From IMG/VR virus record IMGVR_UViG_3300050821_002787, positions 1 through 40,125 of that record: a stretch of DNA of 40,125 nucleotides; one strand, given 5' to 3'. Below the pieces are notes generated by a model, which did no database searches, was not told the DNA's origin, and saw only the letters and a program-made list of their open reading frames with translations. Shown piece after piece: positions 2,429-40,125 of this stretch. The stretch comes from a virus. How positions within the stretch are numbered: position 1 is the stretch's first letter; the number at the start of each line of letters is the position of its first letter. The position numbers and the translations under genes were made by a program.

Positions 2429-2752
2429 ATGCCAGCTTTATTACAGGATTCTGAAATTTTTCAGATGTATGATTGTTATATTTTTTCTAAGAAGAAATAT
2501 AAACTTATATGTGATTTAATATTATATATGCATACATATAAACATGACCCATCTTTAATATGTGAGTATTACAAAAAACGTACACATGGTGATAAAACAC
2601 TTAAATGGCATAGTTATAACGGTTTGTCAGGTTATACATTTGTCATTGAAGGAAATATTTGTAAATATACAATACGTATAGATTTTAAAAATATGAGTAA
2701 TATAATAAAAGAAGCTCTACGCAAAGAAACTATTTCGTATATTATAAAATGA
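2429..2752 (+). CDS. C-tail small protein (107 aa)
   Basis: Unknown function. Lys/Tyr-rich, with predicted mixed alpha/beta content. The last residues, ALRKETISYIIK, carry the tail pattern shared by about 28 small proteins here (basic residues, then I-xx-II-K). It is part of a tight + strand run, 2 bases after the previous stop and 9 before the next start. Confidence 0.7.
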   Translation: MPALLQDSEIFQMYDCYIFSKKKYKLICDLILYMHTYKHDPSLICEYYKKRTHGDKTLKWHSYNGLSGYTFVIEGNICKYTIRIDFKNMSNIIKEALRKETISYIIK

Positions 2753-2761
2753 TACATAATA

Positions 2762-3061
2762 ATGAATAAGTATATTGTTAAAAAATTATTATTGGAAGCA
2801 TACACTAAGCACTCAACACCTAAAATGTGTAGAATGTTATGTGATAATAATGAAGAAATATTAAATTCTATTTCTGTAAGTATATGTGACGGTGAATTAT
2901 GTTATATAAAAGGAATTAGATTTGATGCTAGTGATAAGGAATTTAGTAAATATTTTTATAAAGATGAGCCAAAAAAATCAAATTTTGTTTATTTTTATAT
3001 AAAAAAAGAATATCGAAAATATATAATTAATTTAATATTAAATAATCATGATTCAGAATAA
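2762..3061 (+). CDS. C-tail small protein (99 aa)
   Basis: Unknown function. The tail block EYRKYIINLIL is followed by six extra residues, so here the motif is slightly internal. The 3' end overlaps the next gene by 14 bases, which suggests coupled translation. No membrane or catalytic motif is seen. Confidence 0.65.
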   Translation: MNKYIVKKLLLEAYTKHSTPKMCRMLCDNNEEILNSISVSICDGELCYIKGIRFDASDKEFSKYFYKDEPKKSNFVYFYIKKEYRKYIINLILNNHDSE

Positions 3062-3335
3062 TTTAATATTTGACTTATTAATGGATTTTTGTGAGCAGCA
3101 TACTATATTGAGTTCTAATTTAGAGTATGATAATAGAAGAAGAAGTGAAATTTTTGCTGAAAGAAGAGGTGTGGTAGCAATTAGTTTTAATTTAAAAAAT
3201 AATAGTGTACATTATATCTATAAACAAGAAGATATTAATGATACATCAAATACTTATAATGATATTGTTTTGTTTATATTAAAAGATGAGTTGGCTAGAT
3301 ATCGTGATAATAAAATTAAAGAAATTTTAAAATGA
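3048..3335 (+). CDS. C-tail small protein (95 aa)
   Basis: Unknown function. The middle has a short Arg/Glu-rich helix (RRRSEIFAERRG). The C-terminus YRDNKIKEILK is a textbook example of the shared tail. Its stop lies in AAAATGA, so the next ATG overlaps by four bases. Confidence 0.7.
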   Translation: MIQNNLIFDLLMDFCEQHTILSSNLEYDNRRRSEIFAERRGVVAISFNLKNNSVHYIYKQEDINDTSNTYNDIVLFILKDELARYRDNKIKEILK

Positions 3336-3850
3336 AAATAAATAATATTACATTCTCAGATAGACAATCGGTTGATGATATGGCTATACACACGGATATT
3401 TATGATTTTTATAAGACTTTAATAAAATCACTTCTTGTAAAAAGTTTTTCAAAGGAAGCTATTTTTACAGTAATTCGGTTAAATTTTAAAACTGACCTTG
3501 TTTTTGTAAAATCAAATGTTTTCACACAAGATAATGTATATAAATATAACATGGATAATATTGACATTAGTGTTGATGGTGTGTCGGAAAATAGTATTAT
3601 ATTTGAGGTGAGTTTAAGAAAAAATAAAAATAATTTAAAAAAACTAAATTATTATAATAAATTTGATACTGACTACACCAAAAAATATACTGATTATAGT
3701 GCCGATCCATTAGTCGAAATGTATAAATATGATAAATTATACCAATCGAATGAACAGTATATCGAATATAGATATGAAGTAGTATTTTATCTTCCGATAA
3801 TACTCGCTGATATTAGGAAAGCAAAAATTGATAGTGTTATAAATGAGTAA
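3332..3850 (+). CDS. C-tail protein, long version (172 aa)
   Basis: Unknown function. Longer than most of the group, with a Tyr/Asp/Lys-rich middle and a late segment EVVFYLPIILADIRKAKIDSVINE whose last part fits the shared tail. It begins by ATGA overlap with the 3048 gene and ends about 30 bases before the methyltransferase gene. Confidence 0.7.
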   Translation: MKINNITFSDRQSVDDMAIHTDIYDFYKTLIKSLLVKSFSKEAIFTVIRLNFKTDLVFVKSNVFTQDNVYKYNMDNIDISVDGVSENSIIFEVSLRKNKNNLKKLNYYNKFDTDYTKKYTDYSADPLVEMYKYDKLYQSNEQYIEYRYEVVFYLPIILADIRKAKIDSVINE

Positions 3851-5331: not shown

Positions 5332-6656
5332 AATTAGATATACAATATTTAAAAGATAATAATTTAATTATTTTCGAAAGCATTTCTGGATCTACAGCAT
5401 ACGGCCTCGCCCGTGAAGGGAAGAGCGATTTAGATATACGAGGAGTGTATATTAGCCCTCTTAGAAATTTATTAGGAACATCTTATGTAGATTCACTTAA
5501 AAAAAATTCATCTGTCGAACAATTTTTAAATTCTTTTAAAGATGATGCAAAAGCTCAAAAATTTTTCACAAAATATAACAGTGAAGAACTATCTTATTTA
5601 ATAGAATCTGTTTTCGGTCAAAATTATGATGAACAAGTATCTGACGATACGAATGATACCATGTATTATGAGGTTGGTAAATTTTTGAAATTGATACAAA
5701 AAAATAATCCGAATATATTAGAGTTATTGAATATGCCTGATGAATTTGTTAAATATAAGCACCCTGTGTATGATTTAATTCTTGAACACAAAGACAAATT
5801 TATAACTAAAAAATGTAAAAATTCATTTATAGATTATGCCTATTCTCAATTGAAGAAAGCTCGTGGAGGCAATAAAAAGGTAGTTCAGAAAGTTGGTAAA
5901 ATTAAAAAAACACCACTAGATTTTTGTTTTGTGCTTATAGACGGTAAATCTAAAAAGTTAAAAGATTATTTAAAAACCAATAATTTAGAACAAAAATTTG
6001 CTGGGCTTGTTAAAATAAAAAATGCACGCGATGTATATGGTTGTTATTACGACCGTTTAGCACATGATCTTTTTTCGAAATATGGTAATAAAGCTGGACA
6101 AAAAGTTAAAATTGCTTCACGTAAAAAGAATGATCTACCATGTGGATTTAAATTTAAAGGTATAATAAATGATACTAGTAAGGATTCTAATGATATTAGA
6201 TTATCGTCTATACCAAAAAATATTGAAAAAGAAAGCTTTCTGTGTAATATTATTTACAATAAAGATGGATATACTAAGTACTGTAATGTGTATACAGATT
6301 ACTGGAAGTGGGTGGAAGATCGTAATGAACAACGCTACATAGATAATGTAGCTAATGGCTATAAAGGATATGATCTTAAAAACGCTATGCATTCTGTACG
6401 TTTAACACGCATGGCGGAAGAAATCCTTGACGGGAAAGGAATAATTGTTAACAGAAAGAATGATCGCGATTATCTACTATCCATAAGAGAAGGTAAAATT
6501 TCCTACGAAGATCTTATAAAGACTGTTGAGGATAGTATTGCCAATCTTGGTGAAAAATTTATGAAATCAACTTTGCCGGAATCTGTTGATAATAAATTAA
6601 TTGATGAAATTCTTTATAATATAAGAATGAGTTTTTATAATATAAATGTTTTATGA
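5328..6656 (+). CDS. Pol-beta-superfamily nucleotidyltransferase, RlaP/YcgL-like (442 aa)
   Basis: Residues 21-26 (GSTAYG) followed by SDLDIRG at 33-39 form the G-S-x(n)-D-x-D nucleotidyltransferase signature; D34 and D36 are the metal ligands. The 'Predicted nucleotidyltransferase' family (COG3541, RlaP) has this same start and has been linked to RNA-repair gene clusters. This copy is longer than the ones I know, with extra basic segments around residues 170-300. Coupling by ATGA to the CYTH gene suggests the pair acts together, perhaps in RNA end repair or tRNA modification during host attack on RNA; this is inference. No kinase or ligase partner is seen in the window. Confidence 0.82.
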   Translation: MKLDIQYLKDNNLIIFESISGSTAYGLAREGKSDLDIRGVYISPLRNLLGTSYVDSLKKNSSVEQFLNSFKDDAKAQKFFTKYNSEELSYLIESVFGQNYDEQVSDDTNDTMYYEVGKFLKLIQKNNPNILELLNMPDEFVKYKHPVYDLILEHKDKFITKKCKNSFIDYAYSQLKKARGGNKKVVQKVGKIKKTPLDFCFVLIDGKSKKLKDYLKTNNLEQKFAGLVKIKNARDVYGCYYDRLAHDLFSKYGNKAGQKVKIASRKKNDLPCGFKFKGIINDTSKDSNDIRLSSIPKNIEKESFLCNIIYNKDGYTKYCNVYTDYWKWVEDRNEQRYIDNVANGYKGYDLKNAMHSVRLTRMAEEILDGKGIIVNRKNDRDYLLSIREGKISYEDLIKTVEDSIANLGEKFMKSTLPESVDNKLIDEILYNIRMSFYNINVL

Positions 6657-7038
6657 TAAAAATTATAACGTAATATTTAGCAAATTATTGAGACGTAAAA
6701 TGGAACCAACTCTGGAAGAATATTACAAAGCAACTAAACATGAGTTATATAAGAACGGTATCAAATTAAATAAAATTGAAGACGATCAGCTTATAGGTCG
6801 TTTAAATAATTTTATTAATAGACGATTTATATCTAATGTTAAATTTTTATATGAAAAAAATAATAGTGCAAAGAAAAGAGAAATACAATGGTTTGTTAAT
6901 GAATACACGGAAACTAATGATAATTATATTGTAAATATGGATAGTAAAGTTTATAGTAAATATGCCTATGTTATTATAACACCTTCTCATCTGATAAGAA
7001 ATTATCGCATCAACAGTATTTTAGATAATATAAAATAA
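6646..7038 (+). CDS. C-tail small protein (130 aa)
   Basis: Unknown function. It overlaps the 3' end of the nucleotidyltransferase gene by 11 bases. A later start at 6700 (MEPTLEEYY) is possible and would remove the overlap. Tail: LIRNYRINSILDNIK, matching the shared pattern. Basic and helical overall. Confidence 0.65.
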   Translation: MFYDKNYNVIFSKLLRRKMEPTLEEYYKATKHELYKNGIKLNKIEDDQLIGRLNNFINRRFISNVKFLYEKNNSAKKREIQWFVNEYTETNDNYIVNMDSKVYSKYAYVIITPSHLIRNYRINSILDNIK

Positions 7039-7053: not shown

Positions 7054-7350
7054 ATGACTGATAAGAAATTTATTAATATTATTAAAAAATCTGTTAATAA
7101 AACTTTACCTGAATTTATTATTTTAGAAAAAGAAATAAAATGGATCGTATATTGCTATAAACGAGAAAATTTAAGCTACGAAAATATCAGATATTTAGTA
7201 CTACGTAAACATAATAATGGCACATTATCATTTTATGATTTTGGTAATGAATTGCTGACGTATGATAAAGAAGATTATTTTTTAATTGATATTAAAAAAG
7301 AAATTAGAAAAAGAAATATTAAGAAAATAATAAAATTCATAACAAAATGA
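7054..7350 (+). CDS. C-tail small protein, paralog pair member 1 (98 aa)
   Basis: Unknown function. Aligns along its whole length with the next gene: K-x-I-K-x-x-[VK]-x-[KR], L-P, E-I-[KN]-W, the YLVLRK/YLIFRK strand, and the basic tail RKRNIKKIIKFITK. The pair is a recent tandem duplication. It ends in AAAATGA, overlapping the next start. Confidence 0.7.
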   Translation: MTDKKFINIIKKSVNKTLPEFIILEKEIKWIVYCYKRENLSYENIRYLVLRKHNNGTLSFYDFGNELLTYDKEDYFLIDIKKEIRKRNIKKIIKFITK

Positions 7351-7655
7351 TTTTTGATAAAGATAAATATATTAAATTAATTAAAGTCGCACTTAAAAGA
7401 GATTTGCCTAAATATACTATACGTAAGGAAGAAATTAATTGGATGATAAAGATTCAACTCAAATATTTAGAAAAATCAATTTCTCATAAATATTTAATTT
7501 TCAGAAAATATAAAAATTATAGAATAGAATTTATTGATGATGGTGATGTTTTATTAGATGTTTATTCAGATCATAAAAATTTCTATGTAATAAATTATGT
7601 AGCCGAGGTTAGTAGAATTAGAATAAATAAAATTAATAATATTCTTAGCTATTAG
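7347..7655 (+). CDS. C-tail small protein, paralog pair member 2 (102 aa)
   Basis: Tandem paralog of the preceding gene. Tail SRIRINKINNILSY. It ends with TAG, rare in this window, and its last 11 bases overlap the 3' end of the converging terminase gene; no terminator lies between them. Confidence 0.7.
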   Translation: MIFDKDKYIKLIKVALKRDLPKYTIRKEEINWMIKIQLKYLEKSISHKYLIFRKYKNYRIEFIDDGDVLLDVYSDHKNFYVINYVAEVSRIRINKINNILSY

Positions 7656-9783
7656 GCGAGATATATTTACCATTATTATCAGTTCTGCTTTTAAATATTT
7701 TATCAAATTTTCTTTTTCTATTAACGTTTATAACTGAACTATAATCTGTCCCTGTCTTAAATTCGTTTAGTTTTAGAATATTATCTATCTTAGCTTTTAA
7801 TGTAGTATCAATCATTTTAGAATATATTTCGTCGCACATATCTACAAAAGATGGTTTTGAGAAAGCAGTTGATAGGTTTACCACAGTCATAGCTAAGTCA
7901 TCATGCGCAGAATCAGCTTTATATACAGCATTACCAGCAGCTGTTTCGTGCTTAACAAAAGTAGTTAATTCTCTAATTGTATCTTCGTTATACACTACAA
8001 TAGATCGGCTCTGCATAGCATCCTGATAGTCTTTTACCATCAAATTTTTAGAGCTAGTAACTTTTAAACCTACTTCATCTTTAACAGCATCTACCCTATG
8101 ACGGTATTTGAAAAATAAGTGAGAACCGTAATTATTATTTCCATCAAAAATATTAGGTAGATGTGCTAGTAGTTCTGGTCCACCACAATTTAATTCCAGA
8201 ACAACTTTGATGTTATCCTCATTAAACAAATCATAACAGATGCAATAAAGCAATTCAGCTACCTGTGATGTGGCTATAACATTACTTCTATAAACGCCAA
8301 CTTGATCAAGTTTAAAAAAATGAGTTAATTTGGTAAACGAATCACCATATAAATCTATTATATTTGAATTTTTAAAATCAACCTTGAATATATTTATAAC
8401 AGTGTAATCCTGTCCCAATCCTTCTGACATATCCACAGAAATTATTATTTTATAATTTTTGGCTTTCTCTAATTCAAACATGTCAGGATTATCTATCCAT
8501 TTCAAATTATCCCACTTGAATCGTAATTTCTCATTAAATTTGTCAATATCATGAAATATGAAATTTTTCTTATTAGAGTTTAGTTCTTCTACTAATTTTT
8601 CATCAAGTAATGATCTGTCTGCAGTTACAAATTGTAACCCATATTCCTGATTGAATGCATCTTCACCACCTATATCTTTTATTGTTTCTTTTTTCCATGT
8701 CGTTATTTCTGAAAATTCTAATAAACGAATATCGTTAAATTCTTCCAATAAAATATCTTCTTCTGAACATTCATTATTATTATAAATATAAATAATATCT
8801 TTATTTAATTCGTTACTATATGACATATCCATTTTTGTAGAAGGATATTTATTTTTTAAATCTTCTAATAAATCATTTTTATCTATATTTAATGTATGTA
8901 GCTTAGATTTATTTAATCTAATGTGTGTACAAAAACGCATTGGAATTTGCCACCAATAAACTCGTTTAGCATGGAAGTTATTTTTTTGTGGGTCACCTTC
9001 TGGTCTTTCTGCATCGGTTAAAATCTTATGAAATAAATTGAATCCTCGGGGTGTAGATATCAAAGTTACTTTTGAGTTATCCATGGATGTGATGGTAGGA
9101 AATACAGATGTGTGAAATTTAACAAGAGTATTAGCTTCTGGTATAGCGTATTCATCTGCAAGCCAATAATCAACGTTAGCACCCACACCAGATGATTTAG
9201 AAACTGTTGCTGATTTTATTCTTGATTTATTGTCTAATAAGATACTACTTTGTGTCCAGTTCATTATACCTTTTTGTAAAAAATAAGGAATATTTATATA
9301 AATTTCTTTTATCTTATCAATTAAATCATATATCGTTGCCCATTGGTTGGCGGTTATTAAGACATTTTTGTTGTTGTTGAAGAGAATGAAATGTAAAATA
9401 TGGATGCCACAGACAATCGATTTGCCCGATTGTCTTGACATCATTAGCACATTAAATCTATTTTTTATCAACATCTCTAAATGTTCTAATTGATAGTCTC
9501 TAAGTTTTATAATTCTATGTTTTCCGTCTTCCGTTTTTACACGACAGTAATTTTGCGCGAAATACATTACATCCATTTTACATTTAATGTATTCAGCCTG
9601 TTCATCTTGTGTCATAGCGAAAGCTAATTTAGCCTTCTTGTGCCTAATTTTACCCATGTAAAATGGATTTTCTCCACGGTGTAATATTAAACCATTATTA
9701 ATTTTTTCTTCCGCTAAATCTATTTTTTCGGTTGACCAAATAATTTCTTTTTCTTGTTTATGTGGTTTAGATTCTTCAGACAT
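7645..9783 (-). CDS. terL: Terminase large subunit (712 aa)
   Basis: The ATP-driven DNA packaging motor with headful nuclease. N-terminal ATPase: Walker A-type SRQSGKS at 116-122, Walker B YWLADE ending at E211, and coupling motif STPRG near 244-248. C-terminal RNase H-fold nuclease: D451 in ISVDMSEGLGQDY, the conserved LELNCGG segment, and AHDDLAMT near the end supplying acidic metal ligands. It is longer than T4 gp17 (610 aa), with an Asn/Asp/Glu-rich insertion at about 285-355 between the two domains; I see no intein. It reads opposite to the sheath and tube genes. The start at 9783 overlaps the 3' end of the nuclease gene upstream by 8 bases, suggesting that nuclease gene arrived beside terL. 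Confidence 0.95.
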   Translation of the reverse strand: MSEESKPHKQEKEIIWSTEKIDLAEEKINNGLILHRGENPFYMGKIRHKKAKLAFAMTQDEQAEYIKCKMDVMYFAQNYCRVKTEDGKHRIIKLRDYQLEHLEMLIKNRFNVLMMSRQSGKSIVCGIHILHFILFNNNKNVLITANQWATIYDLIDKIKEIYINIPYFLQKGIMNWTQSSILLDNKSRIKSATVSKSSGVGANVDYWLADEYAIPEANTLVKFHTSVFPTITSMDNSKVTLISTPRGFNLFHKILTDAERPEGDPQKNNFHAKRVYWWQIPMRFCTHIRLNKSKLHTLNIDKNDLLEDLKNKYPSTKMDMSYSNELNKDIIYIYNNNECSEEDILLEEFNDIRLLEFSEITTWKKETIKDIGGEDAFNQEYGLQFVTADRSLLDEKLVEELNSNKKNFIFHDIDKFNEKLRFKWDNLKWIDNPDMFELEKAKNYKIIISVDMSEGLGQDYTVINIFKVDFKNSNIIDLYGDSFTKLTHFFKLDQVGVYRSNVIATSQVAELLYCICYDLFNEDNIKVVLELNCGGPELLAHLPNIFDGNNNYGSHLFFKYRHRVDAVKDEVGLKVTSSKNLMVKDYQDAMQSRSIVVYNEDTIRELTTFVKHETAAGNAVYKADSAHDDLAMTVVNLSTAFSKPSFVDMCDEIYSKMIDTTLKAKIDNILKLNEFKTGTDYSSVINVNRKRKFDKIFKSRTDNNGKYISPNS

Positions 9784-10774
9784 TGTTTAATATATTATTT
9801 ATAGCAAGTTTTATCTTGATATGTTTTATTATTTTTTTCATCTCAATGTTTAAGTTAACACGATATGATATTCTATATAGTATTATATTGTTGCCTTTGC
9901 AATATTGTGTTTTTATAGAGTCTCGAAGTTTTGTTAACTCTAATCTTTTTATCGCTTCTTCTCCTTTGTAAAATTTCTCTATCGTGTAATGAAATACACC
10001 ATCAAACTCAATACATATATTAAGATCTACTATTTTAAAATCAAATCTTAATTTTCGCATAAATCTACAATCATCAAACATATATTCTCTGATATATTTT
10101 ATATTATTTTTGTCAAGAATTTTTACAATTAATAATTCACTTTTTGATTTATATCTCTTACATTTTGGGCAACCTGATCCTCTTATATGATCAGACCTTG
10201 TTTGTAAAAATTCACCATGTGTAGGTAAAGGACATATAATTGTAGTTTTAGAACTACAAGGTCCGTTAACATCTGATTTACTATAATCATAATAATTATT
10301 GTGAATTTCGTTTGAACGTCGGATAAAATCTTCTAATGTTATTTTAGGTGTACCATAACACTTAGGACAACCTTGTTTGTTATCTATATGTCCAATCGCG
10401 GATTGATAAAAAATGTGTAAACAATAATTACATTTTATTTCTACTTTAGTTCGATTGTTTATATAATTAGCATTATTATAATTATATTTTTCACCATGCA
10501 CAATTTTTGCTTCTGAAATAAATTGTTCAAGAGATTTCTTTTTTTGTAAATTTATAGACTCTTTTCTACATTTAGGGCAAGGATGTTTTGATCTACGCAA
10601 ATGATCAGATATTGATTGACTGAATATATGATTGTGCTTAATACACCTGATTGATATTATTTGATGTTTATTAATATACTCTGTTACTAATGAATAATCA
10701 AATTTATTATTATGTTTAGTATATGCATCTTCTAAAAATTCTTCAAGAGTGCGTTTTACAGTTCTTTTACTCAT
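9776..10774 (-). CDS. Free-standing homing-type endonuclease with zinc modules and Vsr-like nuclease domain (332 aa)
   Basis: About two thirds of the protein is a series of treble-clef-like modules, each with a C-x2-H or C-x2-C pair, a [FY]-x-Q step, a His and a CPKC pair (DUF723-type repeats), expected to read DNA. The C-terminal domain has LRFDFKI, then CIEFDGVFHYT, then K-L-R-D...YC..NNIILYRI. This is the E-x-D-G-x-x-H arrangement of Vsr/EDxHD-type nucleases. Four relatives occur in this window, all beside late genes. This copy abuts terL and overlaps it by 8 bases, and also overlaps the next relative upstream by 4. Likely role: spreading itself by cutting phages that lack it. Confidence 0.82.
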   Translation of the reverse strand: MSKRTVKRTLEEFLEDAYTKHNNKFDYSLVTEYINKHQIISIRCIKHNHIFSQSISDHLRRSKHPCPKCRKESINLQKKKSLEQFISEAKIVHGEKYNYNNANYINNRTKVEIKCNYCLHIFYQSAIGHIDNKQGCPKCYGTPKITLEDFIRRSNEIHNNYYDYSKSDVNGPCSSKTTIICPLPTHGEFLQTRSDHIRGSGCPKCKRYKSKSELLIVKILDKNNIKYIREYMFDDCRFMRKLRFDFKIVDLNICIEFDGVFHYTIEKFYKGEEAIKRLELTKLRDSIKTQYCKGNNIILYRISYRVNLNIEMKKIIKHIKIKLAINNILNNV

Positions 10775-11967
10775 GCATTTAATATATCATTTATAACAAG
10801 CTTAATTTTGATATGCTTGATTATTTTATCCATAACAGGTTTTAATGGGGTAGTATACGGTATTCTATATAGTATTATATTGTTGTCTTTACAATACTGG
10901 GTTTTTATGTTGTCACGAATCTTAATTAATTCTAACCTTTTTTCTGCTTCTTGAATATTTTCATCTTTGTAATTTTTTATCGGATTATAATGATAGATAC
11001 CATCGTATTCAATACATATGTTTAAATTATTAATTTTAAAATCGAACGGTAATTTTCTTTTATATTTACAATCATTAAAAACATATTGCGAACTATATGC
11101 TATATCGTTATTGTTGAGCATTTTAGATATTCTTTTTTCATTTTTTGAATTTTGTGATGCACATTTTGGACATCCTGCACCACGCATATGTTCTTTTCTA
11201 ATCTGTTGAAATCTACCATGTCCTAAATGATTACATATAATTGTGGTTTTTGATTTATTAGATCCGTTAACGTCAGATTCTGAATAATCATATTTATTAT
11301 TGTGTGTAATATTTGAAATTTTTATAAATTCATTTAGCGTTACTTTCTTACTTTTAAAACATTCTGTACATCCACATTTTGATTTTAAAAAAAGTAAAGG
11401 AGTGTTATTAACATAGCCATGTATTTCACAGCCTATTGTTATAGGTGTTGTAAAATTTATATATTTTATTTTTGTTAAATCATGATTAACACCAAATTTT
11501 TCAATAAATATTTTTTTAAAAATTTCCTCTGTGTATGCTACACCACCGTTACATGTAGGACATCCACTTTCATTATTTATATGCTCACTTGGAGTTTGAT
11601 AAAAGACATGTCCATTTTTGCAATGTATTTCTAATTTTGTGCTATTGTTGATATAAATAGAATTATTATAAATATATTTATCACCATGCACTTCTTTTGC
11701 GTCAAATATAAATTGTGTAATAGATTTTCTAAATTTTATTTCTAAAAATTCTTTTACACACTTGTTACAAGCATGTTTAGTCTTATCCCGCAAATGAATG
11801 TGTATTGATTGCTCAAACCAATGATTATGTTTAATACATCTAATTTGTATTATTTGATATTGATTAATATATTTAATTACTTTAGAATAATCAAATTTAT
11901 TTCCAAATTTTTCATATGCATCTTCGAAGAATTCTACTAAAGTACGTCTTTTTGATAGTCTTTTCAT
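10771..11967 (-). CDS. Zinc-module/Vsr-like homing-type endonuclease (398 aa)
   Basis: Close relative of the 9776 and 16225 genes, with one more zinc module than the 332-residue version. Start chosen at 11967 (MKRLSKRRTL) because it matches the start of the 16225 relative (MKRKSVRRTL); an in-frame ATG 24 bases upstream lies in the TATATATAG leader. Nuclease core: LPFDFKI, CIEYDGIYHYN, then NNIILYRIPY. The four-base overlap with the downstream relative suggests the two are expressed together. Confidence 0.82.
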   Translation of the reverse strand: MKRLSKRRTLVEFFEDAYEKFGNKFDYSKVIKYINQYQIIQIRCIKHNHWFEQSIHIHLRDKTKHACNKCVKEFLEIKFRKSITQFIFDAKEVHGDKYIYNNSIYINNSTKLEIHCKNGHVFYQTPSEHINNESGCPTCNGGVAYTEEIFKKIFIEKFGVNHDLTKIKYINFTTPITIGCEIHGYVNNTPLLFLKSKCGCTECFKSKKVTLNEFIKISNITHNNKYDYSESDVNGSNKSKTTIICNHLGHGRFQQIRKEHMRGAGCPKCASQNSKNEKRISKMLNNNDIAYSSQYVFNDCKYKRKLPFDFKINNLNICIEYDGIYHYNPIKNYKDENIQEAEKRLELIKIRDNIKTQYCKDNNIILYRIPYTTPLKPVMDKIIKHIKIKLVINDILNA

Positions 11968-12045
11968 AACTCTATATATAATAAACAACACCTTCCCTCT
12001 TGGTAATCAGCCTCATATTCTACGTAGTAATTTATTAATATTAGC

Positions 12046-17562: not shown

Positions 17563-17618
17563 ATATATACAAAATATTCGAAATAATCTATTTTATGATA
17601 ATAATATATAGTATTAAG

Positions 17619-21826: not shown

Positions 21827-21958
21827 TTATTTACTGTTTCGTCCTATTCGTGTATCTGAGAGATTAAGCTCTGAAAATTTTCGATAATTTTTATAAATGT
21901 CAAAAGCTGGTTGCTTTTTGAAAATATCTCTCAGGGCATTGCTAATTTTATTAATCAT
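21827..21958 (-). CDS. Very small unknown protein at operon end (43 aa)
   Basis: Begins MINKISNALRDIFKKQ and ends TRIGRNSK-stop. Its ATG overlaps the stop of the 21955 gene as ATGA, the coupling used through this operon, which is the main evidence that it is translated. Basic, probably one amphipathic helix. It ends three bases from the stop of the converging RuvC-like fragment. No family recognised. Confidence 0.55.
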   Translation of the reverse strand: MINKISNALRDIFKKQPAFDIYKNYRKFSELNLSDTRIGRNSK

Positions 21959-26909: not shown

Positions 26910-27184
26910 ATAATATCCTCAATTAACAGTTCCTCAATTAACAATTTACGTTTAATCATTCGAACATTAAACCAATATTTACACTTTACATTTACATGCT
27001 GCTTATCATATACTGTTATGATAGCTGTTGTTCTATGTGTTAAATATCTATTATTATTAACATGTGTGGTTATAATGACATATCCATCTGACATATGTAG
27101 AGTATTTTTTACGATCTGATCGATACAATTGTCTTCTTCTATTATTTGATTATCTTTAAAAAATTTAATAACAAATTCTTTCAT
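26906..27184 (-). CDS. C-tail small protein with duplicated tail (92 aa)
   Basis: Paralog of the next gene (27181): both begin MKE-x(3)-KFF-x2-N-x-II. The tail is IKRKLLIEELLIEDII; a 15-base direct repeat (26917-26931 and 26932-26946) has extended it by five residues. It overlaps both neighbours by ATGA. Function unknown. Confidence 0.68.
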   Translation of the reverse strand: MKEFVIKFFKDNQIIEEDNCIDQIVKNTLHMSDGYVIITTHVNNNRYLTHRTTAIITVYDKQHVNVKCKYWFNVRMIKRKLLIEELLIEDII

Positions 27185-27435
27185 CCTAATAATTCTTTAA
27201 GCATCAAATATCGTTTAGCAAATTCTACGTTGAAATAATATATTTTAGATTCTTTAGACATTTCAGGTTTATAATCGCATAATCGGTAATTAATAATATT
27301 TGCTATATTATCTGTATTTATTCTTAAATATTTTCCTTTATTTAAAGTGTCCATGTGTTCTAAAATATTATAAATACGACTGTCTGATATAATTATGTTA
27401 TTTGCATCAAAAAATTTTCTTAATTGCTCTTTCAT
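27181..27435 (-). CDS. C-tail small protein (84 aa)
   Basis: N-terminus MKEQLRKFFDANNIII matches the 26906 gene; tail VEFAKRYLMLKELLG. The ATG overlaps the stop of the decayed stub upstream as ATGA. Function unknown. Confidence 0.68.
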   Translation of the reverse strand: MKEQLRKFFDANNIIISDSRIYNILEHMDTLNKGKYLRINTDNIANIINYRLCDYKPEMSKESKIYYFNVEFAKRYLMLKELLG

Positions 27436-27512
27436 TTTAATAACTCTTTAAGTAAAATATATCAATTGGCTTTAAATAAATCGAAACTATATCTGTAACT
27501 ATCTTTTTTCAT
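27432..27512 (-). pseudogene. Stub of a decayed C-tail gene
   Basis: ATG at 27512 overlaps the stop of the 27509 gene as ATGA. The frame runs 16 codons (MKKDSYRYSFDLFKAN), one TGA, then in the same frame YILLKELLK and a TGA that overlaps the next start as ATGA. So both coupling sites and the family's last residues survive while the middle is gone. Confidence 0.45.
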
Positions 27513-27778
27513 TCCAATATTTCCAATATATTTAAATCACGTAATTCCTTGTGATAATTAAATTTAAGAATTTTCTGATTTTTGGTTATTTTTTGCCCTT
27601 GTCTCTCAGCTAGTGTACCTATAATATAGTTCTCACGACTAATTATAAATGTTGTCACATAACACGGATCGTGTATATCCATAATATTATGAAAATTGTG
27701 AAAATTATTGTATTTAATTTTATATTTTTTTAGAAAATTTTTGAAAATTATTTCTATTTCTGTCATATATTGTTTCAA
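27509..27778 (-). CDS. C-tail small protein (89 aa)
   Basis: Unknown function. Contains a repeated N-F-H-N-F-H-N step near residue 25. Tail KELRDLNILEILE. Begins three bases before the stop of the frameshifted 27782 gene in the transcript order. Confidence 0.66.
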   Translation of the reverse strand: MKQYMTEIEIIFKNFLKKYKIKYNNFHNFHNIMDIHDPCYVTTFIISRENYIIGTLAERQGQKITKNQKILKFNYHKELRDLNILEILE

Positions 27779-27781: not shown

Positions 27782-28059
27782 TTAATCATTGAGAACATTT
27801 TTTATACACTTTGAACGTCTTAATTTGTTGATATATTTTATATTTATAGTAAAGTATTTTTCTTTACTCTCTCGCTTATGTGTTCTGTACGTATATTATT
27901 TCTAAAAGCTACACCAACACTGTTGAATGACCATCTGTTGTCTGAATCTATTATATCTAACATATAACATAAATTTGATATAGATGTTATCATCTTATTG
28001 TTGTTATAAGTGTCCGCTAAATAGTAATTTATAATTTTCCTTATTTCTATATCATTCAT
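27782..28059 (-). pseudogene. C-tail small protein gene broken by a frameshift
   Basis: The plain frame from 28059 stops at 27844 after 71 residues (RVKKNTLL). The -1 frame is open from 27895 to 27782 and reads ESKEKYFTINIKYINK then LRRSKCIKNVLND-stop, a normal family ending. One indel between about 27847 and 27895, perhaps in the run of five A, would join them into a protein of about 91 residues. It may be a real loss, or an error in an A-run. Confidence 0.62.
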
Positions 28060-28337
28060 TTTAAAATATCATCAATTTTATTATACCGCATAGCTATTTT
28101 AATGTCAGGAATATTAAGAATGTAATTTTTAATATCTTTAGGAAGTGTTCTTTTTAAATTTGTACTAATTAATTGTTCCTCTAGGTTGAATTTTCGGCTT
28201 CCTGCGTATGATGATTTTTGTTTGATAATATCAAAATCTTTTTCGTCATCCAATATAATGATAGTATGCATACAAGATAATTTTTCGAATGTTATATGTA
28301 CGGCTATTTTTTTGTATTTAACAAAATATGTTGACAT
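28056..28337 (-). CDS. C-tail small protein (93 aa)
   Basis: Unknown function. Tail AMRYNKIDDILK in ATTTTAAAATGA, where the next gene's ATG overlaps. Centre has an IIILDDEKDFDII strand-loop. No membrane segment. Confidence 0.7.
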   Translation of the reverse strand: MSTYFVKYKKIAVHITFEKLSCMHTIIILDDEKDFDIIKQKSSYAGSRKFNLEEQLISTNLKRTLPKDIKNYILNIPDIKIAMRYNKIDDILK

Positions 28338-28341: not shown

Positions 28342-28662
28342 TTATTTTAATAAAGAATTAATATTTTGTTTGCGTATTTTCTTAGTAATATAATCTTGTC
28401 CGAAATAATAATAAACATAAGACTTATCTTGAAAAGGCATTATTGTAGTTGTGTAGAAAACGGGTGTCCATGTATTCTCGTATTTTGATATATCATTATT
28501 TTTCAGATAAAGTCCAAAATAATATCCGCGTATTGCTGGGTCATTCTTGAAATTATTATATAAATGTTTTATATCATCTAAGGATGTGCATTTTAATCTT
28601 TGTGATGTGAGCCACTGATTAAATATTTGAATAAATTGATTTTGTGATATTTTACTAACCAT
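28342..28662 (-). CDS. C-tail small protein, F..L/F..W type (106 aa)
   Basis: N-terminus NQFIQIFNQWLTSQ gives the F-x2-x-F-x2-W helix shared with the 22877 and 29361-29926 genes. Aromatic-rich middle (YYFGLYL). Tail KKIRKQNINSLLK. It overlaps the upstream gene by 8 bases. Confidence 0.7.
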   Translation of the reverse strand: MVSKISQNQFIQIFNQWLTSQRLKCTSLDDIKHLYNNFKNDPAIRGYYFGLYLKNNDISKYENTWTPVFYTTTIMPFQDKSYVYYYFGQDYITKKIRKQNINSLLK

Positions 28663-28918
28663 TGGCTAATATAGTATTAATTACAGAATTTCTTTTGAAT
28701 AATTTAAGATTATAATTATGATGGGTTATATAACCTGCTTTGCCATAGTCATACTCTACAATTTGAATAATGTTATCAATATTCCAAACTTCAATATTTA
28801 CTGATTTATGTAATTTATTTAATTTTAATTCAAGTTGCTGTATACCGAATATAGGTAAATTACCATTATTATCAATATACTTTTCGATCAGTGTGTTATA
28901 ATCGTTTACTATAATCAT
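28655..28918 (-). CDS. C-tail small protein (87 aa)
   Basis: Unknown function. Tail KLFKRNSVINTILANG: the motif is followed by three extra residues. ATGA overlap with the gene upstream. Confidence 0.68.
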   Translation of the reverse strand: MIIVNDYNTLIEKYIDNNGNLPIFGIQQLELKLNKLHKSVNIEVWNIDNIIQIVEYDYGKAGYITHHNYNLKLFKRNSVINTILANG

Positions 28919-29364
28919 GCAGTTACATTTTTGATAATTAATTCACGATAATCCGCTGGTGATACATGCTGGATCTCTTCAAATATATTTTTTATCATAT
29001 TATTACTTATTGAATTACCATTTATTAAATTGATAAATGTTACATATTTATCATCAATGGTATGTAAACATGATGACCAAAGACGACTAAATGCTAAATA
29101 TTCTTCTTCAATATGATAACTTGAATATCCAAATTTTTTTTGGACATGTTCTAACGTATCAACAGACAATGAAAAGTTTAAAGAATATTTAGTTTGATTA
29201 TGGAAAATAATATAATATGTATGTCCATTTTTTAATCTTAAATTAAATACATTTTTATGATTAAAAGCATAGTCAGTGTATACGCCTAAATGTATGTCAG
29301 TATCATGTTTTCGGTACGGGGATTTTTTAAAACCGAGTTCTTTTATTTTCTTTAAATGATTCAT
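28915..29364 (-). CDS. Unknown protein, possible C-tail relative (149 aa)
   Basis: Longer than its neighbours. The strand pair NVFNLRLKNGHTYYIIF is clear; the end ADYRELIIKNVTA fits the shared tail only loosely. Coupled by ATGA at both ends inside the ligase operon. Function unknown. Confidence 0.68.
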   Translation of the reverse strand: MNHLKKIKELGFKKSPYRKHDTDIHLGVYTDYAFNHKNVFNLRLKNGHTYYIIFHNQTKYSLNFSLSVDTLEHVQKKFGYSSYHIEEEYLAFSRLWSSCLHTIDDKYVTFINLINGNSISNNMIKNIFEEIQHVSPADYRELIIKNVTA

Positions 29365-29645
29365 TGCATAATATCACTTAATGTTTCTCTGCGTATTGTT
29401 TTAAGAACTTCCACAGGATTAAATACTAATTTTGGATTAATAGGTTCGCCATTAAATCGCCATTCATAATATGGTTTAGAACCAAAATCTTTCCCATTAC
29501 TAGCACTATAAAGTGGGATAAATTCAACATATTTATACTTACTATTCCAGAAACAGTTGTATAAACTTTTCTTACGAAAAGTAAATGAGTGGCCGTTTAT
29601 TTCTGACCAATGTTTAAGAACTATTAAAAATTGAGAATAGTTCAT
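29361..29645 (-). CDS. C-tail small protein, tandem triplet member (94 aa)
   Basis: One of three adjacent paralogs (29361, 29647, 29926). All have an N-terminal F-x2-L-x2-W helix, a YVEF/YIEF strand, a VFNP step and a charged final helix; here VLKTIRRETLSDIMQ. Function unknown. Confidence 0.75.
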   Translation of the reverse strand: MNYSQFLIVLKHWSEINGHSFTFRKKSLYNCFWNSKYKYVEFIPLYSASNGKDFGSKPYYEWRFNGEPINPKLVFNPVEVLKTIRRETLSDIMQ

Positions 29646-29646: not shown

Positions 29647-29925
29647 TTAATTGTTTAGTAATTCTGTTATTGATTCTTTACGTAATTTTTTAAGTTCTGC
29701 CGAAGGATTAAACACATGGTTTGGATTATCAATTTTGCCATCTATGGCTGAGGTGCCAGTAGTTAAATCGCATACATATTGATCTAATCCATTAAATTCT
29801 ATATATGTATGATTGTTGTAATGAAAAGCATGGTAAATTAGAGTGCACAACGCACGTTCGTTAAATGTGTACCCATATCTGTCTGCCCACCGATCAAATA
29901 AAAATTTTAAAATATCTTTTTCCAT
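29647..29925 (-). CDS. C-tail small protein, tandem triplet member (92 aa)
   Basis: Second of the triplet: DILKFLFDRWADRYGY start, TYIEF strand, HVFNPSAELKKLRKE then SITELLNN. The closeness of VFNP-x-x-ELK-x-x-RKE to the 29926 copy shows recent duplication. Confidence 0.75.
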   Translation of the reverse strand: MEKDILKFLFDRWADRYGYTFNERALCTLIYHAFHYNNHTYIEFNGLDQYVCDLTTGTSAIDGKIDNPNHVFNPSAELKKLRKESITELLNN

Positions 29926-30213
29926 CTAATGGTATAATACATTATTTATTTTTTCTTTTCTGACAAGCTTCAATTCTTCTGTTGGGTTAAACACGTTGAA
30001 TTTATGGAAAATGTGGCTATCATATTTCCATTCAACATTTGTATTACCAATGTCATTTAAACTGTATGGCTCGTTTATATACCTAAATTCAACATATTTT
30101 TTGCCAGTATTAAACTGAGTATATATCTCTGAATAAAAAAATTCAGGACATGCATAGCCACGTTTTTCGAGCCAGTTTTCGAATAATACTACAAATTCCG
30201 TGTATATCATCAC
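29926..30213 (-). CDS. C-tail small protein, tandem triplet member (95 aa)
   Basis: Third of the triplet: EFVVLFENWLEKRGYACP start, KYVEFRY strand, NVFNPTEELKLVRKE then KINNVLYH. It begins by overlapping the stop of the DNA ligase gene, so it is probably translated from the ligase transcript. Confidence 0.75.
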   Translation of the reverse strand: MMIYTEFVVLFENWLEKRGYACPEFFYSEIYTQFNTGKKYVEFRYINEPYSLNDIGNTNVEWKYDSHIFHKFNVFNPTEELKLVRKEKINNVLYH

Positions 30214-36724: not shown

Positions 36725-37045
36725 TCATTCCAAAATTCTGTTAATTATTATTTCACGAACCCACCCTTTGATTATAGTATAAACTTCAAATACATGTTCT
36801 GATTCTCCCATAAAAAATAAAACATATTTTAAATTCAATTCTTTTGCGGCAATCGTTGAATAAGAAACATACTGCAGTTCGTAATTTTTAGCTTGAATAT
36901 GATCACGCAATCTTACACAAGTGTCATAAATATATTTATCAAATAGCACACTATTTTCTAAAAAAGTATCAGGTGGAGGATATATACCTTTCTTTTTAAT
37001 ATATGCCTTTAAATAATCATCTACTTCTTTCGCCGTTTTTAACAT
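36725..37045 (-). CDS. C-tail small protein, YPP paralog (106 aa)
   Basis: Paralog of the 37039 gene: both have YL-x(4)-IKKK-x-[IL]-YPP, a V-x-FD-[KN]-YI step and an I-x-GW-[VL]-R ending. Tail KGWVREIIINRILE. Last gene before the terminator. Function unknown. Confidence 0.74.
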   Translation of the reverse strand: MLKTAKEVDDYLKAYIKKKGIYPPPDTFLENSVLFDKYIYDTCVRLRDHIQAKNYELQYVSYSTIAAKELNLKYVLFFMGESEHVFEVYTIIKGWVREIIINRILE

Positions 37046-37368
37046 TCTTGTAATATATTTTTAATTTTTTCGTCACGAAGCCACCCAACAATAGTATTAT
37101 ACACATATAAATTACAAATAATATTGGTAGAACCGCTAACTATTATATATTCTATAACTTTATTAGTTATACTATTATTATGAAAATGTGAAAAACGTGC
37201 TCCCATATAATTATTATTACGTATTTCATCTGCTACTTTATGACAAACTTTTGTTATATAATTATCAAACATAACAGGATTATCAAGATCTTTAGCCGTA
37301 GGTGGGTACAATCTTTTCTTTTTTATAAATTCACATAAGTAACTATTAATTTTATCTTCGACACTCAT
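37039..37368 (-). CDS. C-tail small protein, YPP paralog (109 aa)
   Basis: Tandem partner of the previous entry (SYLCEFIKKKRLYPP start). Tail VGWLRDEKIKNILQEC. It overlaps the downstream gene by 7 bases and the upstream one by ATGA. Confidence 0.74.
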   Translation of the reverse strand: MSVEDKINSYLCEFIKKKRLYPPTAKDLDNPVMFDNYITKVCHKVADEIRNNNYMGARFSHFHNNSITNKVIEYIIVSGSTNIICNLYVYNTIVGWLRDEKIKNILQEC

Positions 37369-37646
37369 TTTAAAATACTATTTAATATTTCTTTCCTATT
37401 ACATGATATTATTTGTGGAAATATTTCTAATAAATTAATTGTAATATCTTCTCCTAGATAGGAATATCTAACACCACAAATATTGTTGCTGTTCATGATG
37501 ATAACATGTATACTATTAAAATCCAAGTCAATCTCATAAGTTTTTAACTTATCATACAATAAAAATGCAACATAACCAATATAATTATCATTTAATATTG
37601 GCTCAAAATTATCTTTAATATAGTAAATAACTTCTTGTTTAGTCAT
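37365..37646 (-). CDS. C-tail small protein, paired paralog (93 aa)
   Basis: Paralog of the 37643 gene: both begin MT-[KQ]-[QE]-E-x3-YI-[KD]-x-NFE and share an I-[TR]-INL-[LF]-[ED]-IF strand near the end. Tail CNRKEILNSILK. Function unknown. Confidence 0.74.
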   Translation of the reverse strand: MTKQEVIYYIKDNFEPILNDNYIGYVAFLLYDKLKTYEIDLDFNSIHVIIMNSNNICGVRYSYLGEDITINLLEIFPQIISCNRKEILNSILK

Positions 37647-37912
37647 CTTAACAATTCATCCAAAGTTTGTTGCCTTAATTTTTTAGAGAAAATATCAAAT
37701 AAATTAATACGTACAGGTTTATTGTTATACATATATGTTAATGTAGTATATTCTGATTTAAGAGGATCTTTAATTACCCTACAAAGATGTGTAACATTTA
37801 AATTGAATGTTAAAATTCTAAATAATTCATTATTCTTGTCTATCACATAATCAGGATAAGTAATAACTTCAAAATTTTTATCAATATAATTATTAATTTC
37901 CTCCTGTGTCAT
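37643..37912 (-). CDS. C-tail small protein, paired paralog (89 aa)
   Basis: Start MTQEEINNYIDKNFEVI; strand VRINLFDIF; tail KKLRQQTLDELLR. Its ATG overlaps the stop of the helicase gene, so it is probably translated along with it. Confidence 0.74.
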   Translation of the reverse strand: MTQEEINNYIDKNFEVITYPDYVIDKNNELFRILTFNLNVTHLCRVIKDPLKSEYTTLTYMYNNKPVRINLFDIFSKKLRQQTLDELLR

Positions 37913-39552
37913 TTAACTGTTGGTCTTTTAATAGCCATTGCTACATATGGAGGGAACATATGGCTAGAATATCTCATGACATCAGAAAAACATTCATCAA
38001 GAATAATAAAATCAGCAAAATCATTGTAAGATCTAACGGCTCTTCCATATGCTTGAATTATTGTCACAATTGTTCGCCATGTGTACCAATCTGGCCGTAA
38101 TTGTTGTCTTAATTTATTTTTTTCTGATTGTAATGATGGGTATGGTATCTTCAGTAAGATTTGAAATCGAGCACGATCATGCTTCAAATCAAGTCCTGTT
38201 GTCATTGACGGCGAAACTAAAACAGTATCTTCTTCTGAATCATAATGTTCAGTTAAAGTTATATTTCTATTGCTTGAATCAGAATATAAAAGTCGCTCAT
38301 CTTTAACTTTAGTCTGCATCCATTGAGCTAATTCATAATTTACAGTATGTATAATCCCTTTTTTTCCTTTATACTTTTTAAGTATTTTATTAATGACAGG
38401 CACATACCCTTTAAAAGTTTCTTCTTTGCTACGATAATTCATTTTACCGGATGGTATGTAATAGATTGGCCTATTCTCCACAGGGAATGGTGAGGACATA
38501 CCCATATATGAAGTTTTATTAACATCTAAACCATTTAAGAAACAAAATAACTCTTTATTCAAAATAGTCCCAGACATCATAATAACATGATCATATCTAC
38601 TCCATACATATTCATTTAGGTATTCAGAAGACCATACTGGGGTCATTTGTAGTTCGATGGCATTATCTTTAAGAAAAGATTTTTCCATGACCCAAATGTT
38701 TGGATTTTTTTCGTGCTCAGATAAAAACCAAACAATTTTTTGTCCTAAATCTTTCAGCATAGACATAATCTGAACAATTTTTAGTTTGGGATTTTTATTT
38801 CCGTTAATGTTATCTATTTTTAAGCTTCTATTTATTGATAGATGCGAACCTTCTAATTCTTTTGAAAGTTCATCCATTGTTTCTGTAATACCTTCTGATA
38901 CATGCTTAATGAATTCTAAATAATCATTTTTATCCTTAACACCTCTAAATCTAGTAACAAGTTCATTTTCATTTATAAATTTCAAACGTTTAAAGGTGTT
39001 TTCATTTATATTAATTGATATGAAATCAGAAAAAACTGTATCAAAATCATGTGCCTCATCAACTATTAAAATATTTGCCTTTCTCTCATCTTTAAAACGT
39101 GGGTTATATAACGTCATTAATATATATAGATGAAAATTAGTAAGACTTATGTCGCCTTGCATATAATAACTTTTAGCTGCTTGATAAGGGCATGCTTCAC
39201 AGGATTTAGCTCGATTTAAGGTGTTAAATTCACTTCCCCCTGCACAAGAACAAGCATAAGTGTCACACTGATAATTATCTTTACCTGATAATGAATCAAT
39301 GGATTTAAATTCATTTGTATATTGGTCTTGTAAAATTTTCTGATTTGTGAGTATATCAAATTTGGCGTTTTTTCTTTTATTATTTATATACCAATCGGAA
39401 ATCATTAAAGCAAGATAAGATTTTCCTATACCTGGCGGCAAATCTAGTAATATAAACTTTTTATCGTGATTAATACTTTTCTTTACAAATTCAAGAGCAG
39501 AAACTTGTTGATCACGAGGTGTTAATTTTAAATCATTTGATAATCTAGTCAT
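37909..39552 (-). CDS. XPD/DinG-type superfamily 2 DNA helicase with Fe-S cysteines (547 aa)
   Basis: An ATP-driven helicase, expected to be 5'-3' like its family. Walker A PPGIGKS (39-45), then C96, C101/C103, C118 and C121 in the position of the Fe-S cluster of the XPD/DinG/Rad3 group, then DEAH at 165-168 (ILIVDEAHDFD). In the second helicase domain: VIMMSGTIL, then SPSMTTGLDL and the arginine-finger motif QAYGRAVRS. Shorter than DinG (about 700 aa). It probably acts in phage replication, recombination or R-loop removal. Its stop overlaps the following small gene by ATGA. Confidence 0.9.
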   Translation of the reverse strand: MTRLSNDLKLTPRDQQVSALEFVKKSINHDKKFILLDLPPGIGKSYLALMISDWYINNKRKNAKFDILTNQKILQDQYTNEFKSIDSLSGKDNYQCDTYACSCAGGSEFNTLNRAKSCEACPYQAAKSYYMQGDISLTNFHLYILMTLYNPRFKDERKANILIVDEAHDFDTVFSDFISININENTFKRLKFINENELVTRFRGVKDKNDYLEFIKHVSEGITETMDELSKELEGSHLSINRSLKIDNINGNKNPKLKIVQIMSMLKDLGQKIVWFLSEHEKNPNIWVMEKSFLKDNAIELQMTPVWSSEYLNEYVWSRYDHVIMMSGTILNKELFCFLNGLDVNKTSYMGMSSPFPVENRPIYYIPSGKMNYRSKEETFKGYVPVINKILKKYKGKKGIIHTVNYELAQWMQTKVKDERLLYSDSSNRNITLTEHYDSEEDTVLVSPSMTTGLDLKHDRARFQILLKIPYPSLQSEKNKLRQQLRPDWYTWRTIVTIIQAYGRAVRSYNDFADFIILDECFSDVMRYSSHMFPPYVAMAIKRPTVK

Positions 39553-39567
39553 ATATTATTATATTGT

Positions 39568-39879
39568 TTATTTAATTAATTCTTTTAAACGCATACCTCT
39601 TTTTTTATTTTCTTGAAAAAGTTCGTACTTTCCTATTATATCAATTAATTGCTTATAGTTTTTAAATTTTTTTCTTTCTATTATTGTGTAATTATCATCA
39701 TCTACCCAGAAATATATTTTATAATTATTATTTTTAAAATTTATTTCTAAATCAATGTGTTCATATTCGGGCATGTATGATGGTACACATATATAATAAG
39801 TGTCGATATAATCAGGATAGTCAATTATTTTATAATATCCCAATTCTACTATATGCTTTACAAATTGATGTTTAGTCAT
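39568..39879 (-). CDS. C-tail small protein (103 aa)
   Basis: Partner of the next gene by FKNYKQLIDII versus FKTYKQVIKHI. Tail KKRGMRLKELIK. It ends 15 bases before the helicase start, so it may share that transcript. Function unknown. Confidence 0.72.
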   Translation of the reverse strand: MTKHQFVKHIVELGYYKIIDYPDYIDTYYICVPSYMPEYEHIDLEINFKNNNYKIYFWVDDDNYTIIERKKFKNYKQLIDIIGKYELFQENKKRGMRLKELIK

Positions 39880-40125
39880 TTAAAATATTAGTTATTAATA
39901 CTGAGCGATATAATTTAACATTGTAAAATTTATTTTCAATTATATGTTTTATTACTTGCTTATATGTTTTAAATCCTGAAAATGTTTGATGTGTTTTAAC
40001 AAAATTATCATACATAATTCTTTCAATTCTTAAATTATTAAAATAAACATAGGTAAATTCATCATATCTTCGATATAAAAAATACATTCCTTCAGTTATG
40101 CCTTGATGTTCAACATATCCTATTT
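39872..40125 (-). CDS. C-tail small protein, 5' end beyond the window (partial, at least 84 aa)
   Basis: An ATG exists at 40087, but the frame stays open to the window edge and reads like protein (IGYVEHQGITEG before MYFLYRRYDEF), so the true start probably lies outside. Shares the FKTYKQVIKHI block with the next gene downstream. Tail KLYRSVLITNILND. Confidence 0.65.
   Translation of the reverse strand, partial: IGYVEHQGITEGMYFLYRRYDEFTYVYFNNLRIERIMYDNFVKTHQTFSGFKTYKQVIKHIIENKFYNVKLYRSVLITNILND

Follow-up and report, generated by a model that had tools for sequence, protein, structure and literature searches.

A clade-wide, modular peptide tail on small proteins of LR745206-related megaphages

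Tail-bearing genes in the viral record

The window analysed here is the whole of the IMG/VR virus record IMGVR_UViG_3300050821_002787 (40,125 bases), in which many small proteins end in one short peptide tail, an arginine followed at set positions by aliphatic residues. It represents one fragment of a megaphage genome, to which three complete genomes are related, LR745206 (W01; 634,780 bases), LR756502 (W02; 642,428 bases) and LR756504 (W03; 636,363 bases). These are its closest relatives by terminase identity (48%, 47% and 37%, respectively), and the sheath, tube, ligase and DinG-type helicase of the window are 41-61% identical to their W01-W03 counterparts. Both LR756502, from a French lake, and LR745206, from a Japanese subsurface sample, have been described as megaphages and grouped with the marine Mar_Mega_1 (PMC9723777). 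When relatives were sought in IMG/VR through the terminase large subunit (TerL), a single-sequence query returned none and an alignment query returned 232. The sequences of W01-W03 were taken tile by tile; the 735-kb genome LR756501 (W04), two further phages (G001 and G002) and the outgroups were partial samples. Genes were called mechanically, with stops, and hence C-termini, robust and starts less so.

The regular expression R...[ILMV]..[ILMV][ILMV].{0,3}$ matches 22 of the 61 mechanically called open reading frames (ORFs) of the window, against an expectation of 0.44 when the last 15 residues are shuffled and of 0.18 for internal windows; parity with shuffled C-termini, which an earlier interpretation made from the letters of the window (the sequence-only reading) had named as the outcome that would count against it, is thus not observed. 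A position-specific matrix trained on LR745206 and LR756502 only recovers 24 window tails (0.1-0.3 expected), and since this matrix came from two other phages only, the tail in the window is not an artefact of self-fitting. In a MAFFT alignment of 26 window members, the arginine is invariant and is followed by I/L at +4, +7 and +8. The members are listed below with strand, length in amino acids (aa), tail and score; all entries marked as tagged are in the alignment.

2429-2752, +, tagged, 107 aa, tail LRKETISYIIK, score 21.3
2762-3061, +, tagged, 99 aa, tail YRKYIINLILNNHDSE, score 20.0
3048-3335, +, tagged, 95 aa, tail YRDNKIKEILK, score 25.0
3332-3850, +, tagged, 172 aa, tail IRKAKIDSVINE, score 18.6
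6646-7038, +, tagged, 130 aa, tail IRNYRINSILDNIK, score 20.3
7054-7350, +, tagged, 98 aa, tail IRKRNIKKIIKFITK, score 15.0
7347-7655, +, tagged, 102 aa, tail SRIRINKINNILSY, score 20.5
21955-22257, -, tagged, 100 aa, tail MRSDTINDILK, score 22.8
22254-22583, -, tagged, 109 aa, tail HRKLLINELLK, score 25.7
22580-22858, -, tagged, 92 aa, tail KRKSVIEQILK, score 22.8
22877-23170, -, tagged, 97 aa, tail NRLETIDSILNS, score 22.2
26906-27184, -, tagged, 92 aa, tail KRKLLIEELLIEDII, five residues beyond LL, score 6.7
27181-27435, -, tagged, 84 aa, tail KRYLMLKELLG, score 17.6
27509-27778, -, tagged, 89 aa, tail LRDLNILEILE, score 21.5
28056-28337, -, tagged, 93 aa, tail MRYNKIDDILK, score 23.3
28342-28662, -, tagged, 106 aa, tail IRKQNINSLLK, score 25.0
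28655-28918, -, tagged, 87 aa, tail KRNSVINTILANG, score 17.3
28915-29364, -, marginal member, 149 aa, tail YRELIIKNVTA, score 6.5
29361-29645, -, tagged, paralog group, 94 aa, tail IRRETLSDIMQ, score 20.0
29647-29925, -, tagged, paralog group, AlphaFold model, 92 aa, tail LRKESITELLNN, score 24.6
29926-30213, -, tagged, paralog group, 95 aa, tail VRKEKINNVLYH, score 23.9
36725-37045, -, tagged, 106 aa, tail VREIIINRILE, score 19.2
37039-37368, -, tagged, 109 aa, tail LRDEKIKNILQEC, score 26.2
37365-37646, -, tagged, 93 aa, tail NRKEILNSILK, score 23.1
37643-37912, -, tagged, 89 aa, tail LRQQTLDELLR, score 22.4
39568-39879, -, tagged, 103 aa, tail KRGMRLKELIK, score 15.6
39872-40087, -, tagged, 71 aa, tail YRSVLITNILND, score 20.2
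38806-38832, -, degenerate internal copy NRSLKIDNI in a DinG/XPD-like helicase (37909-39552); relatives have a full RDLKIxK[IL][LI] here

The sequence-only reading had counted about 28 proteins with a common tail. The tail is real, and the count becomes 26 clear members plus one marginal (28915-29364); three lookalikes, the endonuclease-like paralogs at 9776, 10771 and 16225, have tail-like ends without the arginine and were excluded. All nine tails that it quoted at named genes are present, and the N-terminal F-x2-[LF]-x2-W helix that it ascribed to several carriers is genuine in about six, which makes part of the window set paralogous. Ten window carriers gave no convincing match in Pfam and PHROGs, and a profile of whole carriers yielded only weak matches against the megaphages, because the carriers have only the tail in common.

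Other genes of the window deserve mention. At 9776-11991, 16225-17418 and 19914-20915 lie four endonuclease-like proteins that are related to one another and contain repeated blocks with Cys residues; three of them have the common end IKHIKIKLxINxIL, from which the arginine is absent. A tandem array of three paralogs, each about 210 aa long and lacking the tail, is encoded at 167-2109; the first member has a single phage match, in LR756502 (35% identity). The ORF at 17595-18878 resembles, by eye, a TnpB/OrfB-type transposon protein.

Spread of the tail across phage genomes

The tail is clade-wide. The regular expression matches 93, 101 and 86 C-termini in W01, W02 and W03 (4-5 from shuffles), and the position-specific matrix, at a score of at least 8, marks 159 of 997, 164 of 1034 and 141 of 1002 genes (2-3 expected), corresponding to 14-17% of genes at a false discovery rate of about 2%. 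Applied to W01, a matrix from the window recovers 116 tails where 5 are expected. Tagged genes tend to adjoin one another (54 neighbour cases versus 25 expected). The consensus reads R-[DEN]-x-K-[IL]-[ND]-x-[IL]-L-x(0-4) in W01 and W02 and R-K-x-[KI]-I-x-x-L-L in W03. When every gapped pattern of five residues is scanned without bias, the tail emerges as one of the leading proteome-wide motifs of W01, W02, W03 and G001. IMG/VR contigs carry it as well, two of 476 kb and 385 kb (101 of 563 and 35 of 357 genes, with 1.7 and 1.2 expected) and two smaller ones (6 of 25 and 10 of 107 genes), and so do five further loci retrieved via two tagged families (3-5 tails apiece). Small proteins of LR756501 carry a diverged version, RT[KE]LIDK[MIV]L. 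In four phages that are more distantly related, one of 462 kb together with PTm1 of Tenacibaculum, PAU of Sphingomonas and MA9V-1 of Chryseobacterium, the tail does not exceed chance level, and it was not found in 50-kb samples of T4, Bacillus phage G and Lak-A1.

Several other recurrent peptides were encountered in these genomes. A variant, R-[DE]-x-K-[IL]-x-x-[LI]-G-I, occurs on more genes of LR745206, LR756502 and G001, some of them orthologous to genes with the ordinary tail. In LR756501, the sampled 400 kb hold 52 copies of a second proteome-wide peptide, DPYGEExW, which stands near either terminus or within the protein, with up to four copies per protein (in proteins of 1233 and 843 aa) and 48 distinct 24-mers. 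Given this second motif in the 735-kb phage, the use of such proteome-wide motifs looks habitual in these viruses and not like a single accident. In LR756504, SLxNSCMRxxxCxxYFxVY is repeated in 13 proteins of 466-772 aa, perhaps an expanded family.

Modularity and selection at the protein level

The tail is modular. After removal of the last 16 residues, 326 carriers from four genomes fall into 290 BLAST clusters at an E-value of 1e-4, 264 of which are singletons. Carriers range from 46 to 731 aa (median 87-100 aa, tail excluded) and include riboflavin kinase, DUF6011 and zinc-ribbon domains as well as N-terminal transmembrane anchors. One example is a possible auxiliary metabolic gene at 38954-39448 in LR756502, in which a riboflavin-kinase domain precedes a Cys-rich extension with the tag at its end, and one DUF6011 protein also ends in the tag; a protein search with a zinc-ribbon carrier found matches only within its own genome. 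A seven-member paralog group is present among the LR756504 carriers. Orthologs are scarcer for carriers than for other small genes (37/141 versus 158/436 in W01; 31/140 versus 157/480 in W02), and tail-less orthologs exist (W01_619581/W03_51800, W02_324074/W01_296841 and W01_27959/W02_587676). All 99 pairs in which both orthologs are tagged keep the tail in register, and the lysine at +3, which the regular expression does not demand, is identical in 76% of them, compared to 48% for the body.

Conservation is seated in the peptide. Arginine codons of the tail match genome usage in the window, W01 and W02 (p = 0.18, 0.996 and 0.17), and all six are used in window and W01 tails; because these codons track genome usage in three of the four genomes, selection acts on the peptide. 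At the +7 isoleucine, ATA is favoured in W01 and W02 (p = 3e-5 and 5e-6), which may reflect a minor contribution from the DNA level close to the next start. Relative to the next same-strand start, 46 of 97 small tagged genes in LR745206 overlap it, 21 end 0-40 bases before it, 11 lie farther away and 19 have none. The tail is accordingly not confined to genes whose stop overlaps a following ATG, a confinement that the sequence-only reading had set out as counting against its proposal.

Internal copies and structural context

A strict form of the motif occurs C-terminally 52 times in W01 and 46 times in W02. It is also found internally, with 10, 11, 5 and 6 copies in W01, W02, G001 and G002, compared to 0-2 for permuted or reversed motifs, and several internal copies are kept between orthologs. 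In the UvsW-type helicase W01_120830, the motif is part of an insert missing from the homologs of W03, PTm1 and MA9V-1, and the motif-bearing loop of the DinG-type helicase is absent in W03. Moreover, 0-8 or more residues follow the IL pair, and the distance to the C-terminus varies accordingly. Since the motif also lies in loops inserted into two helicases, a free C-terminus is unnecessary, and a docking motif is therefore favoured over a C-terminal degron.

Structure prediction with AlphaFold gave one acceptable model, of window protein 29650-29925 with five paralogs (predicted local distance difference test score (pLDDT) 77, predicted template modelling score (pTM) 0.73), which places the tail in the C-terminal helix 74-91. 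Foldseek returned no significant PDB or viral structure match for this model, and a second carrier was modelled poorly (pLDDT 55).

Two motifs and two promoter classes

A second short motif, MK[YH]LK-x-[FY]-N-E with variants, stands at the N-terminus of other W01-W03 proteins, and we take it to resemble the capsid-targeting sequence (CTS) of T4. It marks about 115 genes in LR745206, 124 in LR756502 and 39 in LR756504, and is also a top pattern in LR756500 and PAU. The two motifs are nearly exclusive: one protein carries both in W01 (18.3 expected, p = 2e-8) and one in W02 (19.7 expected, p = 5e-9).

Two promoter-like motifs were recognised upstream of operons. Motif A, TATATTTGTA with an upstream TTTG, fits the Bacteroidota vegetative promoter type, which suggests a Bacteroidota host; motif B, TTTTAATATATA, is of phage type and is linked to CTS-like genes. 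Pooled over W01-W03, the ratio of promoter A to B is 117:33 for tagged and 16:107 for CTS-like genes (odds ratio 24, p = 2e-28), including 34:9 versus 4:11 in LR756504. Compared with other genes, tagged genes are shifted to promoter A (p = 2e-5 pooled), clearly so in W01 and W02. From these sequence patterns we infer early expression and an intracellular location for tagged proteins, and late expression and a place in the virion for CTS-like proteins. An N-terminal transmembrane segment is present in about 5-10% of carriers and is followed in most by positive charges, on which account the tag of these anchored carriers is probably cytoplasmic.

Candidate partners

Seventy-four W01 genes are also found in W02, W03 and G001 and in none of four outgroup samples. 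They include a ClpC-type unfoldase and DnaK (the latter recognised by eye), and ClpC-ClpP and DnaK are candidates for a common partner. An AAA_2 unfoldase is present in six of six tag- or variant-bearing phages tested and in none of four phages without the tag. ClpC lacks the N domain in W01, W02 and W03; in W01, W02 and G001 this adaptor-binding domain is absent and the VGF loop present, and the proteins of W01 and W02 have a UVR motif. W03 additionally encodes a ClpX-like protein. Copies of ClpP were found in W01, W02, W03 and G001 (four of six), and not in the partial samples of W04 and G002. N-domain-less ClpC is also common elsewhere, as in nine large-phage contigs of 130-370 kb with 0-1 motif matches each. 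Among IMG/VR large-phage contigs, ClpC-type unfoldases are frequent, and many of 650-690 aa look N-domain-less.

Interpretation and rival explanations

Unrelated folds, tolerance of position and protein-level conservation, the properties expected of a short linear docking motif, are all observed. The explanation we favour, at a probability of roughly two in three, is that early, non-virion proteins of the cytosol carry the tail as a portable motif for docking or addressing, with one partner common to them all. The sequence R-[DEN/K]-x-[K]-[IL]-x-x-[IL]-[LI], mostly at the extreme C-terminus and sometimes in a surface loop, would probably fold as a short amphipathic helix, whose arginine and I/I/L face may make the contact; in this way many unrelated, mostly small, early phage proteins would be docked onto a single partner in the host cytosol. 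A portable C-terminal signal was among the options of the sequence-only reading, and it is now supported genome-wide by the 290 body clusters, the varied domains, the tail-less orthologs and the helicase-loop copies.

Several results weigh against this docking explanation. In W03, arginine codons depart slightly from the usage of the genome (p = 0.007), the exclusion of the two motifs is not significant (2 proteins with both versus 5.5 expected, p = 0.15) and small genes with and without the tag show no difference in promoter class (p = 1). The CTS and promoter classes are defined by simple patterns, and most operons show neither promoter pattern. In the sole acceptable structural model, the tail helix belongs to the fold, and the tail may for that reason also serve folding in that paralog group. 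No receptor for the tail was found, and the carriers are so diverse that we infer, rather than observe, one shared partner.

Other explanations account for parts of the evidence. The tail could be a degron read by phage ClpC-ClpP to clear early takeover proteins at the proper time, or, conversely, the docking end of an adaptor, by which variable small proteins, each bound to a host target, are brought to ClpCP. This would agree with the early class and small size of the carriers, with the occurrence of ClpC-type unfoldases in the six tag or variant phages and in none of the four others, with the missing N domain and the VGF loop, with ClpP in four phages and with the precedent of SspB, an adaptor docking through a short C-terminal motif (PMC7226468). 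However, nine ClpC-bearing large phages show almost no motif matches, ClpP was not found in the W04 and G002 samples, and the free C-terminus at fixed distance of a classical C-terminal degron is replaced here by variable ends and copies inside two helicases, which renders this explanation unlikely. If the tail were instead an oligomerisation or scaffold helix, through which tagged proteins bind each other or form a shared intracellular body, its amphipathic pattern, its share of 14-17% of the proteome, the clustering of early genes and the mixture of soluble and membrane-anchored carriers would follow; yet an invariant arginine and near-fixed spacing are more in keeping with one defined pocket than with a generic coiled coil, and we regard a scaffold as quite improbable. 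The rarity of the tail among proteins longer than 300 aa speaks against import of replication enzymes into a compartment.

The sequence-only reading had also considered one fast-evolving family whose last helix is held constant, with no separate signal. Locally this stands, for the six window paralogs and the seven of LR756504, and tagged genes are clustered; genome-wide, no homologous body unites carriers of 46-731 aa with distinct domains, 290 body clusters and internal copies in helicase insertions, so that such a family is very doubtful and largely refuted. Packaging into the virion by a signal like the T4 CTS has the parallel that T4 internal proteins are small, diverse and united by a short terminal peptide (PMC3012670). 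It is highly unlikely, in view of the nearly disjoint set of genes with the N-terminal CTS-like motif and opposite promoter class, of tails at chance near structural genes (3 of 1031 genes at 80 TerL loci) and of carriers with transmembrane anchors. A DNA- or RNA-level signal, with the 3' end of the gene constrained for the next start or a recombination boundary, would explain why overlap with the next start is commoner in tagged small genes (47% versus 29% in W01) and why ATA is preferred at +7. Nucleotides are not conserved beyond the peptide, though: arginine codons are as in the genome in three of four cases, the same-codon fraction is 0.60 against 0.52 expected (W01), fewer than half of the tagged genes overlap the next one and some have no downstream gene, by which this signal is refuted as the main cause and retains almost no probability. 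The caveat of the sequence-only reading about such a signal thus survives slightly, in the isoleucine codon preference of two genomes, and finds nothing at arginine there. As for the functions it had suggested, packaging is disfavoured and a simple C-terminal degron weakened, and docking or localisation remains.

The docking explanation can tentatively be extended to a two-address sorting scheme, for which we would give slightly less than even odds: an N-terminal T4-type motif would send late proteins to the virion, and a clade-specific, mostly C-terminal motif would send early proteins to an intracellular hub. To the same tentative degree, each hub would gather about 150 unrelated proteins, most of them unique to each phage, and the 735-kb relative would use a diverged form together with DPYGEExW. 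If so, new genes could join the hub by gaining about 10 residues. Giant-phage genes are mostly small orphans without a functional handle. The tail provides about 150 of them per genome with a common, testable mechanism, serves as an annotation marker for a functional class invisible to sequence homology, and suggests peptide addresses as the means by which these viruses sort their proteins, with separate ones for the particle and for the infected cell.

Comparison with known systems

Short C-terminal peptides that act on unrelated proteins include the ssrA-type and MuA-type degrons, from which the megaphage tail differs in its internal copies and variable distance to the C-terminus. The encapsulation peptides of bacterial microcompartments, to which a scaffold helix may be compared, are short amphipathic helices, terminal or internal, that recruit unrelated proteins to one body. 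The megaphage motif differs from them in its invariant arginine and phage-wide use. For SspB and RssB, a short C-terminal ClpX-binding motif has been proposed as common to differing adaptors, although the RssB copy is not functional (PMC7226468). The likeness lies in a short C-terminal motif that docks, or in the megaphages would dock, otherwise different proteins to one partner (PMC7226468); the differences are that the megaphage tail has about 150 carriers per genome and another sequence, and that phage ClpC alone does not predict the tag.

In the open-licence literature searched, no description of such a proteome-wide tail was found. The internal proteins of T-even phages form a diverse set with only a conserved CTS in common (PMC3012670), and they share with the tagged proteins the principle of small, diverse phage proteins united by a short terminal peptide, which is, or in the megaphages would be, their address (PMC3012670). 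The T4 peptide, however, directs proteins into the head, whereas the megaphage peptide is C-terminal or internal rather than N-terminal, marks 14-17% of genes, is associated with host-type promoters and hardly occurs on proteins that have the N-terminal CTS-like motif; from these sequence features, its carriers do not appear to be late and virion-destined. Since the T4 CTS fails in position and destination, degrons fail in position and no described equivalent was found, the tail is set apart as new. It looks like a peptide without a described counterpart in that literature, its nearest kind being the T4 CTS, from which it differs in where it stands and where it would send its carriers.

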